Assembly: GCF_000430045.1 (NCBI RefSeq)
Contig: NZ_KE387023.1
Span: forward strand, 1,403,258-1,436,494
Length of the DNA: 33,237 nucleotides
DNA from: Calidithermus chliarophilus DSM 9957
GTDB lineage: Bacteria > Deinococcota > Deinococci > Deinococcales > Thermaceae
Reading direction: 5' to 3'
Position 1 is the stretch's first letter. The number at the start of each line of letters is the position of its first letter. The notes under the pieces are model-generated. The model was not told where the DNA came from and did no database searches. It saw only the letters and a program-made list of their open reading frames with translations. Positions 16,163 to 22,265 of this stretch are shown here, one piece after another. A program made the position numbers and the translations under genes.

Positions 16163-16238
16163 GCCAAGGTAGCTCAGTCGGTAGAGCATGCGACTGAAAA
16201 TCGCAGTGTCGGCGGTTCGATTCCGCCCCTTGGCACCA
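16163..16238 (+). tRNA. tRNA-Phe (anticodon GAA), attachment site of the integrative element
   Basis: 76 bases with CCA encoded. The acceptor stem GCCAAGG pairs with CCTTGGC, the anticodon stem TGCGA/TCGCA holds loop CTGAAAA (anticodon GAA), and the T arm is GGCGG TTCGATT CCGCC. The 3' 45 bases, from the anticodon loop to CCA, are duplicated exactly at 22221-22265, so the element integrated here without breaking the gene. Confidence 0.95.
16194..16238. other. Attachment site, left (att inside tRNA-Phe)
   Basis: 45-bp copy forming the 3' part of the intact tRNA-Phe, starting at the anticodon loop and ending with CCA. It is identical to 22221-22265. Confidence 0.92.
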
Positions 16239-16309: not shown

Positions 16310-16330
16310 TGACGGCAACCTGACGGCAAC
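16310..16330. other. Left arm-type repeat of the element
   Basis: Two tandem copies of TGACGGCAAC(C), 11-bp period. The same 21 bases occur at 22117-22137 in the same orientation near the other end, as expected of integrase arm-binding sites. Confidence 0.65.
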
Positions 16331-16335
16331 GCGCC

Positions 16336-17502
16336 TCAGGCGGTGGGTCTTCCCTCTTTGGGGCCTAACAACTCGCTCACCGCTAGGGCGGCCTTCTTGC
16401 GCTGGGACGCGAAGACGTGCTGATAGGTCTGCTGGGTAAAGGAGACGTTGGCGTGTCCTACCCGCTCAGAAATAACCTTGGCGTCCATCCCGGCCAGGGC
16501 CAGCAAGCTTACATGGGTATCGCGCAGATCGTGGAAGCGGATTCGCTTCACCCCGGCCCGCTGGATGACCCGCACGAACTCGCGATGAAGGTTCCCCGGC
16601 TCGATCGGCGTGCCCAGCGAGGTCGTGAACACCCAATCCCCATTCGCCCAATCCTCACCCATCTCGAGGCGCTCCTTCTCCTGCTTTTCCCGGTGCTGCC
16701 TGAGCACCTCGAGCACGTCCGGCCCCACGTCCACCGGGCGGCTCGAGCGGTGGGTCTTGGGGGTGTGGATGACCTTTTCCCCCCCGGCCACGGTGTAATT
16801 GCGGCGTACCCAGATACAAGCGCCCCGCCAGTCCACATCTGACCATTTGAGCCCCAATAGCTCGCCCCGGCGCATCCCGCTCATGAGGGCCAGGAAGAAG
16901 AGGGCGTACCAACGGGAGTGCTGGGCCTCGGCAAGAAACGCCCAAGCCTCTTGGGGCGTCCACACCTCGCCCACGTAGCGGGGAGCTTTGGGCGGCTTCA
17001 CCCGCTCGGCCGGGTTCCAGGGGAGGAGGCCCCACTGCACCGCGTCGTTCAGGGCCGCGTGCAGGGCGCGGTGAACGAGCCGCACCGTGGTGGGGGAGAG
17101 GGTCTCGAGCCGCTCGGGGTCGTTAGGGCGAATCCGCTTCTTGAGCAGTTCGGCGTAAAGGTGGGTCAGGTGCAAGGGCTGTAGGCGCTGCACCGCCACG
17201 TCTCCCAGGACAGGGGTCACATGCCGCCTGAGCGAGATGGAGTATTGCAGATGGGTCGTGGGCTTGACGCGGTGCTCTACGGCGGCTAGCCACCGCTCGA
17301 TGAACTCAGAGACGCTGATCCGGTCGGGGTCGGGGAGAAGGTTCCGGCCATAAGCCGATAAAAGCTCAGCGAGCTTCTTGGCGGCCTCTTTGCGGGTCTT
17401 GGCATACCCTCGATGCCGCTTTCCGTTTACGGTAAGCGAATACTCATAGCGGCCATCAGAGCGCTTGTAGATCGAGCCCTCATTATTTGATCTTTTGGGC
17501 AT
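16336..17502 (-). CDS. Tyrosine recombinase (integrase) of the element
   Basis: 388 residues. The N-terminus is an AP2-like arm-binding domain (GSIYKRSDGRYEYSLTVNGK), followed by a core-binding SAM-like domain (about 65-165) and the catalytic domain. Catalytic residues: R211 in SGMRRGELLGL, a Lys in HTPKTHRSSRPV, H324 and R327 in FHDLRDTH, H350 in RVGHANVSF, and Y360 in TYQHV. It catalyses integration into, and with the excisionase excision from, the tRNA-Phe site 98 bases downstream of its stop. Its ATG overlaps the preceding small gene by 20 bases, so both are made from the promoter near 17715, separate from the main operon. Confidence 0.95.
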   Translation of the reverse strand: MPKRSNNEGSIYKRSDGRYEYSLTVNGKRHRGYAKTRKEAAKKLAELLSAYGRNLLPDPDRISVSEFIERWLAAVEHRVKPTTHLQYSISLRRHVTPVLGDVAVQRLQPLHLTHLYAELLKKRIRPNDPERLETLSPTTVRLVHRALHAALNDAVQWGLLPWNPAERVKPPKAPRYVGEVWTPQEAWAFLAEAQHSRWYALFFLALMSGMRRGELLGLKWSDVDWRGACIWVRRNYTVAGGEKVIHTPKTHRSSRPVDVGPDVLEVLRQHREKQEKERLEMGEDWANGDWVFTTSLGTPIEPGNLHREFVRVIQRAGVKRIRFHDLRDTHVSLLALAGMDAKVISERVGHANVSFTQQTYQHVFASQRKKAALAVSELLGPKEGRPTA

Positions 17503-19186: not shown

Positions 19187-19552
19187 TTATTGCCTGAGGG
19201 CCTCAGAGGGGCTTACAGCGGGTCTAGGGGGCGCTCGAGCCGGGCGGTGGGCCACAGCTACCCGCTCCAGCCGTGGCGGGTGGCCGGGCCACTGGCCGCA
19301 CACCTCGACCGACTGCCTGGGGCTGGGGTAGAGCCGGGCCAGCTTGTCCAGAGCCTCGGCTATCCGGCGCTCGAGGGCGAGGCGCGGCATACCGGGAAAG
19401 CGGGCGTGGGCCTCGAGGTCTTCGGGGGTGGGCCAGGCGGTGATGTAAACCGGCTCACCGTCAACCTTGACCACCAGCAGCGGGGGTTGCAGGGTCTTGA
19501 GCTTGGCTGCGATGGCCCCGGTGCGGGTGGTCAGGGCGTCCCAGGGGGTCAT
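19187..19552 (-). CDS. Unknown element protein, 121 residues
   Basis: Starts MTPWDALTTRTGAIAAKL and contains LLVVKVDGEPVYITAWPTPED, an alpha/beta pattern, with a Pro/Arg-rich C-terminal tail (HRPARAPPRPAVSPSEA). The ATG at 19552 overlaps the stop of the RepA-like gene in an ATGA, so it is translationally coupled. The family is not recognised. Confidence 0.7.
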   Translation of the reverse strand: MTPWDALTTRTGAIAAKLKTLQPPLLVVKVDGEPVYITAWPTPEDLEAHARFPGMPRLALERRIAEALDKLARLYPSPRQSVEVCGQWPGHPPRLERVAVAHRPARAPPRPAVSPSEALRQ

Positions 19553-20697
19553 ACCTCGACCTCCCACCCTTCGGGCTCGGCCTCGAGGTCGGGGGTCGGT
19601 GCGGGCTCGGGCGGATTTAGCGCAAACTGCGCAGGGGTGCGCAAGGGGGTTTGCGCTAAATCCGTGCGTTGCTCATCGGCTTTTTCCCCATTTACGGCAA
19701 AGCGCAAAGTGTACAGCGTGGGGCTACCCTTGCCGCTGGACTCTCGGGCCTCGACCTCCCCGGCGGCCTTGAGGCGGCGCAGGGCCTCGGTGATGGTGCG
19801 CTCGGAAGCGTTGGCCCGCTCGGCCACCTTGCGGATGAGTTCACCGCGCAGCAGCGGGCCTTCTCCCAGCACCTCCCGCACGCCCCGCAGGGCGCGGGTC
19901 AGGGCAGGGGCGTGGCTCGCTTCTTCTTCGGGCAGGTCGGTGATCTCGAAGCGCAGGCTGTCCCGCTCGAAGTGGCGGGCGATGCCCAGCGGTTCGCCCA
20001 TCGGGCCGAGGTTGTTTTTCAGGCAGTCCAGCCTAAGCACGTCCTGCCCACCGGTGAGCTTGGGGGCCACCCGTTGCAGCAGGTAGGCACTGCGGGCCCC
20101 GCCCAGCTTGTAGAAGCTCCCCGCCACCCCGCGCTCGAGCACCGTGAGCCCCTGCACCGGCTTGGGGGTGTGGTCCAGCACCAGCACCGCAGGCCCCAGG
20201 GCGGCAATCTGCCGCAGGCGGTTCATGACCTCGGCCACGTGCTCGGCCTTCTTGGAGTCGGCGTAGAAGAAAGCTGATGTCCAGGCGTCGATCACGATGA
20301 GCCTAGGTGCATCCAGCCGCGCCAGCCCCTCCAGCTCATCGAGTCGCTCGAGGTCGAGCCCCTGGGAGGGGTTGGAAGGCTCGAGGTAGTGGATGCGCTG
20401 GAGCGCTTCGGCTCCAACCCCCAGCCCGGCGGCGACCTTGCGATACCAGGGGCCTTGCAGGCGGGCGTCGGTGTCGTAGTCCAGGTGCCACACCTCGCCC
20501 TGCTGGGTGGGGGCCTCGAGGAAGTCCACCCCGGCGGCCACGGCCACCTCGAGGGCGGCGATGAGGGTGCTCTTGCCCGCACCGGCAGGCCCGCCCAGGA
20601 TGCCCACCGTACCGGCGGCGATGTACCCTTCCCACAGCCAGCCCACCTCTGAGGCGGTGGGCAGGGTATCGGCGGTTTTCCAGGCGAAGCCGCTCAC
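19549..20697 (-). CDS. RepA-like AAA/RecA-fold ATPase with C-terminal winged helix
   Basis: 382 residues. Walker A GGPAGAGKST spans residues 35-44, Walker B PRLIVIDAW ends at about Asp137, and the motif VLVLDHTPKP (171-180) is typical of hexameric RepA-type helicases of plasmids and phages. Residues about 285-330 form a winged helix (LRGELIRKVAERANASERTI, then RRLKAAGEVEARES). The tail contains TDLAQT and QFALNP, encoded by an inverted pair of iteron-like 13-mers. The GTG start overlaps the previous stop (GTGA) and has GGGAGG upstream. Likely role: replication initiation or helicase for the element. Confidence 0.88.
   Translation of the reverse strand: MSGFAWKTADTLPTASEVGWLWEGYIAAGTVGILGGPAGAGKSTLIAALEVAVAAGVDFLEAPTQQGEVWHLDYDTDARLQGPWYRKVAAGLGVGAEALQRIHYLEPSNPSQGLDLERLDELEGLARLDAPRLIVIDAWTSAFFYADSKKAEHVAEVMNRLRQIAALGPAVLVLDHTPKPVQGLTVLERGVAGSFYKLGGARSAYLLQRVAPKLTGGQDVLRLDCLKNNLGPMGEPLGIARHFERDSLRFEITDLPEEEASHAPALTRALRGVREVLGEGPLLRGELIRKVAERANASERTITEALRRLKAAGEVEARESSGKGSPTLYTLRFAVNGEKADEQRTDLAQTPLRTPAQFALNPPEPAPTPDLEAEPEGWEVEV
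19613..19663. repeat. Inverted pair of iteron-like repeats in the RepA-like gene
   Basis: GGATTTAGCGCAAAC (19613-19627) and its exact reverse complement GTTTGCGCTAAATCC (19649-19663) are separated by 21 bases. The same 13-mer core occurs three more times at 20746-20831. Both halves are read through as codons. Confidence 0.8.
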
Positions 20698-21371
20698 CGC
20701 TTGCCTCCCTTACCCCGCGCAAACACGCTTTGGCGCTTTGCGCTGTTTGCGCTAAATCGGGTTTGCCCATCTCCATCGCGTTTATTTAGCGCAAAGGGCC
20801 TTGCGCTACCCCTTGCGCTTTGCGCTAAATCCGGCGGTAAATCGCGGGGGTGCTGAGCACCCTTCTTGAATCCGCGCTTGGCGGTGCTCAGGGCCTCTTG
20901 GTGAGACAAGCCGGTAACTAGCGCGGCCTGTACCAGCTCCTCAAGGACGCGGTGCTCATCGAGTCCAAGGTGCTCGAGTTGGCCTAGCCCGAACGCGGCG
21001 CGGGCCAGGACGTTGTTTCTTTGCCCTACGGGGGCAGATTGCACCTCCAGCACGGCGCGAGCTAGGGCGGCTTCGCTGTAGGCCCGCTCTCTATCGCGGG
21101 TCGTAGAGCGTTGCCAGCGGGGTTTCTCGTTCGGGTGCTCAGGATCAAGCACCGAGAGGCTGCGATGCAGGGCCAGGAGCCGGATTTCCTCAGCCGAGAG
21201 CAAGTAACCCTCGATGTCATCGGCATTTTCTCGGTAGGCGGTAAGGATTACACCCCGCTCGAGCAGATCGGGCGGGGGGGTCTCTACCTCGAAGTGCTCG
21301 AGCTCGAGCACGGCGCGGGCCTGTTGCAGGTGGGCGGGGTCGAGTACAATGGACTTGCGCACGGCCCGCAC
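20694..21371 (-). CDS. PriCT-like protein without primase catalytic domain
   Basis: 225 residues. Residues about 115-180 (GQRNNVLARAAFGLGQLEHLG, then ALVTGLSHQEALSTAKRGFKKG and HPRDLP) match the primase C-terminal helical domain that normally follows a prim-pol or Toprim catalytic domain, but no catalytic domain precedes it. The C-terminal tail (PDLAQS, PFALNK, RFSANS) is encoded by iteron-like repeats just upstream of the RepA-like gene. The GTG start lies three bases after the previous stop. Probably a replication accessory or helicase-loading protein. Confidence 0.75.
   Translation of the reverse strand: MRAVRKSIVLDPAHLQQARAVLELEHFEVETPPPDLLERGVILTAYRENADDIEGYLLSAEEIRLLALHRSLSVLDPEHPNEKPRWQRSTTRDRERAYSEAALARAVLEVQSAPVGQRNNVLARAAFGLGQLEHLGLDEHRVLEELVQAALVTGLSHQEALSTAKRGFKKGAQHPRDLPPDLAQSARGSARPFALNKRDGDGQTRFSANSAKRQSVFARGKGGKR
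20746..20831. repeat. Iteron-like repeats upstream of the RepA-like gene (candidate origin)
   Basis: TTTGCGCTAAATC occurs at 20746-20758 and 20819-20831, and as its reverse complement with one change at 20784-20795. Partial copies (TTGCGCT) lie at 20735-20742, near 20801 and near 20813. The group lies 50-130 bases before the RepA-like start, the usual place for iterons of theta replicons, inside the tail of the PriCT-like gene. Confidence 0.65.
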
Positions 21372-21841: not shown

Positions 21842-21865
21842 GGCCCACCGCGCAAACGGTGGGCC
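21842..21865 (-). terminator. Leader hairpin 2 of the element operon
   Basis: Stem GGCCCACCG/CGGTGGGCC with a 6-base loop; on the minus strand it is followed by ATTTGCTTTT. It lies between promoter and first gene, so it must be read through or controlled. Confidence 0.55.
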
Positions 21866-21923
21866 TGCCGACAAGTGGGAGTGTCAACGGGGGTGGTCTA
21901 GGCATTAGAGCCTCCAAAAATGA

Positions 21924-21947
21924 GAGCCCGCCGGGGTGGGCGGGCTC
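21924..21947 (-). terminator. Leader hairpin 1 of the element operon
   Basis: Stem GAGCCCGCC/GGCGGGCTC with a 6-base loop; on the minus strand it is followed by TCATTTTTGG. It is a terminator-like structure about 40 bases after the predicted transcription start. Confidence 0.6.
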
Positions 21948-21979: not shown

Positions 21980-22008
21980 AGTATAGGGCCAACAAAACAG
22001 CCTGTCAA
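21980..22008 (-). promoter_or_regulatory. Consensus promoter of the element's main operon
   Basis: On the minus strand TTGACA (22003-22008), exactly 17 bp, then TATACT (21980-21985). It is the best sigma-70-type promoter in the window. It leaves a leader of about 170 bases before the first HTH gene, holding two terminator-like hairpins and no ORF of note. Confidence 0.85.
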
Positions 22009-22116: not shown

Positions 22117-22137
22117 TGACGGCAACCTGACGGCAAC
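22117..22137. other. Right arm-type repeat of the element
   Basis: Tandem TGACGGCAACC, identical to 16310-16330 and in the same orientation, 83 bases inside the right attachment site. A small hairpin CCCCTG/CAGGGG (22103-22116) adjoins it. Confidence 0.65.
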
Positions 22138-22220
22138 CGGGGGGTAAAAGTGGGGGGTGGGGGTATGTAAAAAGCCCGTCCAGGACACAAGCGGAAACGT
22201 CAGGATACGCCTGACTGTAC

Positions 22221-22265
22221 CTGAAAATCGCAGTGTCGGCGGTTCGATTCCGCCCCTTGGCACCA
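22221..22265. other. Attachment site, right
   Basis: Exact 45-bp duplicate of the 3' part of tRNA-Phe (16194-16238). The 5' half of a tRNA is missing, so it is not a second tRNA gene. Confidence 0.92.

Follow-up and report, generated by a model that had tools for sequence, protein, structure and literature searches.

The window analysed here is the whole 33,237-nucleotide stretch of the Calidithermus chliarophilus DSM 9957 genome, and it contains a 6,027-bp insertion in a tRNA-Phe gene that is flanked by two identical 45-bp direct repeats. One att copy forms the 3' end of the tRNA-Phe gene (16194..16238, plus strand), and the second lies 6,027 bp further on (22221..22265, plus strand; 100% identity over 45 bp). 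The element encodes a tyrosine integrase (16336..17502, minus strand; PF00589, E 7.9e-25; phrog_1), a helix-turn-helix protein resembling an excisionase, a gene in the primase position that we call gene X (20694..21371, minus strand), a RepA-like helicase (19549..20697, minus strand) and small unknown genes. By the open reading frames as called, the stop of X and the start of RepA touch or overlap. The sole promoter-like site found is a sigma-70-like sequence on the minus strand, matching at 11 of 12 positions (21980..22008) and lying upstream of the leftward operon; this one site compares with a shuffle mean of 0.7. Just past it, near the start of the operon, two strong terminator-like hairpins are found on the minus strand (21842-21947), and these are a possible attenuator region. 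Repeats of TGACGGCAAC occur at 16310-16330 and 22117-22148, with two units by one end of the element and two to three by the other, and are candidate arm-binding sites of the integrase.

The RepA-like protein has an ATPase of the RSF1010-RepA type (AAA_25), both by sequence and by fold [PF13481, E 1.4e-23; 1g8y, E 2.9e-7; 1nlf, Foldseek E 7.6e-12], followed by a C-terminal winged helix predicted at about residues 265-331 and a predicted disordered tail (residues 334-382). Relatives bearing an N-terminal Prim-Pol domain match the X protein of the window in their C-terminal part, a helical region common to both, and X too ends in a predicted disordered tail. X gave no match in Pfam (even at E < 5), PHROGs or NCBIfam, so that "PriCT" remains a label by position, and no significant fold was found by Foldseek. 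In the window and in two of the related loci (L037 and L039), the N-terminal ~85 residues of X match nothing in Pfam or PHROGs and no fold significantly, in the place taken by the Prim-Pol domain in other relatives, and this part may be a priming module that is new or was exchanged.

A stretch of 1.2 kb contains four exact copies of the 13-mer TTTGCGCTAAATC and a fifth that departs from it at one position. The initial annotation had listed these five copies correctly except for one start, which is at 20783 and not at 20784; it had placed them inside the 3' coding tails of a PriCT-like and a RepA-like gene, which holds for the positions, and the PriCT identity is not confirmed by Pfam. The repeats are real, but the picture was incomplete: copies occur in both orientations, and counting the degenerate ones there are eight sites, which fall into two groups of four, array A within the tail of X and its mirror image, array B, within that of RepA. 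In gene orientation array A reads S1> 19 S2> 17 S3< 37 S4>, and consists of S1 (20819..20831, plus strand, exact), S2 (20800..20812, plus strand, degenerate with four mismatches but with GCGCAA kept), S3 (20783..20795, minus strand, one mismatch) and S4 (20746..20758, plus strand, exact). Array B reads S4'< 39 S3'> 17 S2'< 19 S1'< in the same orientation, with S4' at 19689..19701 (minus strand, three mismatches, falling where the layout predicts), S3' at 19650..19662 (plus strand, exact), S2' at 19633..19645 (minus strand, degenerate, and placed by eye from the expected spacing without a tool score) and S1' at 19614..19626 (minus strand, exact). The spacer between S3 and S4 is about 26 bp, and in many elements it resembles, by eye, GCCGTCCTGGACGGC with a stretch of A or T after it, a resemblance that is weaker in the window.

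At up to one mismatch, no further copy of the 13-mer exists in the genome of 4,688,964 bases, in which the reversed 13-mer pattern used as a control occurs once. Short repeats in several copies, regularly spaced and unique to the replicon, are expected of an iteron-type origin, and this pattern is present here. The count within the window at up to three mismatches is only marginal (seven matches against a shuffle mean of 2.59, with 3 of 100 shuffles reaching seven); what makes the case is that the copies cluster, that the genome has no others at up to one mismatch and that relatives carry such sites. A general repeat detector applied to the RepA gene only (10-mers, up to one mismatch) finds two copies for array B of the window, which 40 of 40 codon shuffles also reach, and array B by itself is thus unconvincing. 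With the same detector L028, L030 and L034 stand above their codon shuffles (reached in 0, 1 and 1 of 40, respectively).

We examined all 16 matches to the RepA profile A1 at E ≤ 1e-20, which come from 15 of 111 genomes, the number covered at both the order and the phylum level. Sites are present at each of these 16 strong RepA loci and both arrays in 14 of them, the remaining two (L029 and L042, both of genome G026 and both with an N-terminally truncated RepA) having only array B. The arrays of L038 and L041 are degenerate; those of L038 missed the strict filter and were recognised with a more permissive match (up to 3 mismatches in 11) at the canonical spacing, amid other scattered hits. After a common start, G(A/G)TTT, the iterons continue as AGCGCAA, TCCGCAA, TGGAACA, TGGAGCA, TGGGCCA, TGTGCCA, GACGACA, GATGCAA, GATGAAG or TGGGCAA. 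Since L034 and L035 are nearly identical, and L030/L031 and L032/L033 are close, about ten of these classes are independent, and they occur in one layout. Start-to-start spacing in the clear arrays is nearly constant (about 18-19, 17-18 and 37-40), L028 deviating through how its motif was written, and sites are missing, extra or reordered in L037, L040, L041 and L036. The sites within each element belong to one class, with the exception of arrays A and B of L033, and this points to a common trans-acting binder. Among weaker RepA-like loci, the strict scan found one three-copy cluster each in L044 and L076, and L045 has a tail cluster; no cluster was found in that scan for L043, L046 or L038. 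The window RepA had no match among plasmid and phage records, nor did the L030 RepA among plasmid records or the L034 RepA among phage records. The L028 RepA as query found no relative in genome contigs and the L034 RepA none in viral contigs; alignment A3 as query retrieved one relative, Thermus brockianus, from the former and five distant matches from the latter.

Whichever gene precedes rep has array A in its tail, and these genes include unrelated primases. The preceding gene encodes a Prim-Pol protein by Pfam in L028, L030 and L036 (the arrays of L036 being elsewhere), a primase detected by PHROGs only in L034, and a DnaG-type primase in L038; it is without a primase match in the window, L037 and L040. 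In L039 both arrays are within the tail of RepA, with about 60 bp from S4 to S4', and in L036, the T. brockianus locus, both follow the RepA stop codon as a compact pair, back to back and ~20 bp apart. These two loci indicate that coding tails are not essential for the arrays. The arrays of L036 probably lie in non-coding DNA: an open reading frame of 254 amino acids can be read through them, but the part of this frame that resembles the downstream gene of its neighbours starts, in our judgement, after the arrays. At L041 A-type sites are kept and no homologue of X was found upstream, although this copy may be decaying, as its RepA has a Walker A motif that by eye is altered. At positions 945-1040 of L032 we also observed the remnant of a second B-type array, far from rep, in which sites of the TGGGCCA and TGTGCCA classes of L032 and L033 are mixed, and this remnant is a possible donor or relic of a class switch.

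A pattern of repeats inside coding sequence raises the question of whether the DNA or the peptide is under constraint. The tails could carry conserved protein motifs, for example for binding a partner, with the DNA repeats as a by-product of repeated peptides, and the peptides DLAQ, FALN and LAQN do recur within the tails. The first two had been reported in the initial annotation for both tails, and we find them there together with a third reading, FSA. However, when sites with up to two mismatches are counted in 11 elements, their 81 readings are distributed over forward offsets 0, 1 and 2 as 16, 6 and 21 and over reverse offsets as 24, 1 and 13, so that a site is read in all six combinations of strand and frame, one of them once only. 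In four pairs of related elements, 274 of 286 positions in the sites are identical (95.8%), against 445 of 579 in the rest of the tails (170 of 204 between sites and 275 of 375 after the arrays). At third codon positions the sites show identity in 88 of 92 cases and the gene bodies in 1164 of 1447 (Fisher P = 7.8e-5, for positions that are non-independent), and no drop in identity at third positions is seen within the sites. The RepA genes of L030 and L031 are an exception, with lower identity in the sites (0.923) than in the gene body (0.962). The parts encoded by the arrays (residues 334-382 of RepA and 183-225 of X) have AlphaFold pLDDT values below 50. Taken together, the use of frames, the conservation of the sites and the predicted disorder favor a function of the DNA over one of the peptide, and the protein tails that hold the sites appear to carry no other constraint.

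The comparison among relatives argues in the same direction. The encoded peptides differ between iteron classes, the arrays of L036 lie beyond the gene, and L041, possibly a decaying copy, keeps A-type sites without an X homologue. It had been proposed that related elements would have conserved iterons and variable peptides, and what we see is a layout that is kept while the iteron sequence and the peptides vary; the opposite pattern, peptide tails kept and DNA repeats lost, which had been named as a sign of protein function, is seen in 0 of the 16 strong relatives. We regard an explanation by protein motifs as already disfavoured and as highly improbable.

The repeats could also act as RNA hairpins, in stability, retro-regulation or termination, or be selfish palindromic inserts such as the RPE of Rickettsia, and indeed S1/S3 and S2/S3 are inverted pairs able to fold. 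Folding with a neighbour would not demand that S4 and the distant array share a sequence class, as they do, and the only Rfam matches are tRNAs. Selfish inserts are dispersed in a genome, which these sites are not, and there is very little probability left for an origin of the repeats along either line.

If a trans-acting protein reads the sites, its DNA-binding domain may be expected to change with them. We compared the distances between iterons with those between protein parts, in 8 to 11 elements of shared ancestry, with L033 entered by the class of its array B; the set of 11 leaves out L029, L031, L034, L035 and L042, which have the same classes or are truncated. Iteron distance is correlated with the distance in the RepA winged helix (rho = 0.36, P = 0.009, n = 11) and in the recognition helix (rho = 0.41, P = 0.007, n = 11), but not in the RepA ATPase (rho = -0.14, P = 0.82, n = 11), and the partial correlation with the winged helix given the ATPase is 0.47 (P = 0.0012, n = 11). 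The C-terminal part of X shows no such correlation (rho = 0.15, P = 0.24; 8 elements, those in which both proteins are present). In the near-identical pair L032 and L033, the rep genes differ at 15 codons within 1-277 and at 30 of 86 codons within 278-363; this latter block of L033 holds the recognition-helix change K299M and array B, with a G-to-T change in all four B sites. From the sequences, it looks as if helix and sites were replaced jointly. Array A of L033 has retained the old class while array B and the winged helix changed, and thus array A may be dispensable there or the element may be a hybrid. The covariation with RepA's own winged helix also bears on the idea that the arrays are partition or transfer sites, centromere-like or oriT-like, which would serve another protein of the element. 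Paired inverted arrays do occur at partition loci, but a scan of nine proteins of the element recognised neither ParA/ParB nor a relaxase or transfer gene, and we consider sites of this kind quite improbable.

Relatives that keep the layout while changing the letters of the repeats suggest that the repeats are probably RepA binding sites and an origin. Our preferred interpretation, which we hold to be likely, is that they are iterons bound by RepA and serve the excised element as its origin of replication. The iterons would be recognised by the C-terminal winged helix of RepA, and both arrays together would constitute the origin of the excised circular form, where RepA would bind the arrays, load as a hexameric helicase and open the DNA for priming. 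RepA binding, origin function and any pairing of the arrays are what we infer from sequence comparison and analogy. Consistent with an initiator, the element encodes a RepA with a predicted DNA-binding domain that tracks the iteron sequence, in a small and related sample. The operon is very tightly packed, which would account for sites that sit in coding DNA, in protein tails. Several observations speak against this interpretation: an AT-rich melting tract was not found at the arrays of the window, where the local GC content is 57-68% around both; X has no recognised primase domain; the class of array A is unswitched in L033; the correlations come from only 8 to 11 elements of common ancestry; and for the studied element ICETh2, discussed below, little if any replication is reported (PMC7693054).

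The missing AT-rich tract would also fit a reading of the arrays as operators bound by RepA, or as copy-control sites of the handcuffing or incompatibility type, with the true origin elsewhere. Many iteron initiators bind control sites as well, and the sites here are inside the operon. The arrays are, however, at gene ends and away from the sole promoter-like site, neither the element nor the genome has another iteron copy at up to one mismatch, and the compact form in T. brockianus looks like an origin beside rep, so that a purely regulatory role seems unlikely to us. A more specific form of the origin interpretation, which we put forward as tentative and rather doubtful, is a split origin, in which two mirror-image half-origins at the ends of the X and RepA genes would be brought together by RepA across its own 1.1-kb gene, with one start per strand. 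The winged helix and the eight sites would then switch specificity together, close elements would avoid each other's replication, and L033 would represent a switch that is half-way. If the origin interpretation is right, the roughly ten naturally occurring combinations of winged helix and iteron in these elements could teach how initiator specificity changes, and the elements would illustrate how disordered protein tails can accommodate hidden regulatory DNA when a replicon is very compact.

Repeats in the tails of such helicase genes are not confined to these elements. Distant RepA-like replication genes (AAA_25) of viral contigs, at six loci in two groups (L091-L093 and L094-L096), have convergent iterons in their last ~130 nt; the iterons differ between the groups but enclose an AT-rich core that is similar in both. 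For L091, L092, L093 and L094 none of 40 codon shuffles reaches the observed tail iterons. In viral contig L086 a tail cluster does not stand out from shuffles (7 of 40). From 93 matching plasmid and phage records of viral RepA relatives, seven annotated ones were examined, and convergent repeats were found in the gene tail in L102 (Microbacterium phage Fizzles) and just past the stop in L101 (pCG2); in L097, L098, L099, L100 and L103 repeats were not above shuffles. At L102, gene 69 (primase/helicase) has three direct and three inverted copies of GGTGTCACAA at 2523-2588, ~150-210 nt before its stop, and by its sequence this cluster is likely a phage origin. Tail iterons in helicase genes of the RepA-like kind therefore recur, but they are not universal.

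Among solved structures, the ATPase of the window RepA is closest to RSF1010 (IncQ) RepA, by sequence profile and by fold. To our knowledge RSF1010 RepA has no comparable winged helix and tail, and the RSF1010 iterons are bound by a separate protein, RepC. An origin within an initiator gene is an old idea, and we found no description in the open-access literature searched of a mirror-image array pair split between the tails of a primase and a helicase gene. The lambda origin, as described in the part of the source used here, lies within gene O and has four 18-bp iterons and a 38-bp AT-rich sequence in one place (PMC3349717). The likeness is that of iterons within the coding sequence of their own binding protein, as array B is inside the RepA reading frame and RepA is the putative initiator; unlike lambda, the window has two inverted arrays in the C-terminal tails of two genes, and the binder would be the helicase itself.

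A further parallel is with the PICI and SaPI elements. In the portions of the published accounts considered, a PICI origin comprises an AT-rich region 3' of rep with a set of iterons on either side of it (PMC6092414), and the C-terminal domain of the SaPI Rep recognises the iterons (PMC7581432). The element in the window is likewise small and integrated, with an integrase, a primase-position gene, a helicase-initiator candidate and two iteron sets near the 3' end of rep. Unlike those of PICI, its sets mirror each other from the coding tails of two genes and are separated by the whole helicase gene; the helicase is RSF1010-RepA-like, and an AT-rich tract was not found at the arrays of the window. 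The two sets of the window thus flank the rep gene, and the forms nearest to PICI are L036 and L039.

Within the Thermaceae, a studied element of similar general make-up is ICETh2 of Thermus thermophilus HB27, which carries a primase-polymerase in commercial use. As far as the portions of its published description considered here extend, ICETh2 is integrated at a tRNA gene between 47-nt att repeats and encodes a tyrosine integrase and a primase-polymerase followed by a helicase (PMC7693054, PMC9751324); its excised circle exists at a level affected by Hel, and replication is called "quite low if existent" (PMC7693054). Family, tRNA att repeats and tyrosine integrase are shared with the element in the window; X of the window lacks a Prim-Pol match, which is present in relatives of X. 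The same portions name neither iterons nor an origin (PMC7693054, PMC9751324), and in our search of the open-access literature no description of ICETh2 iterons was found. If the origin interpretation is right, arrays of the type described here are origin candidates that can be tested directly, for a group of elements in which the published description of the studied member, so far as considered, names none.
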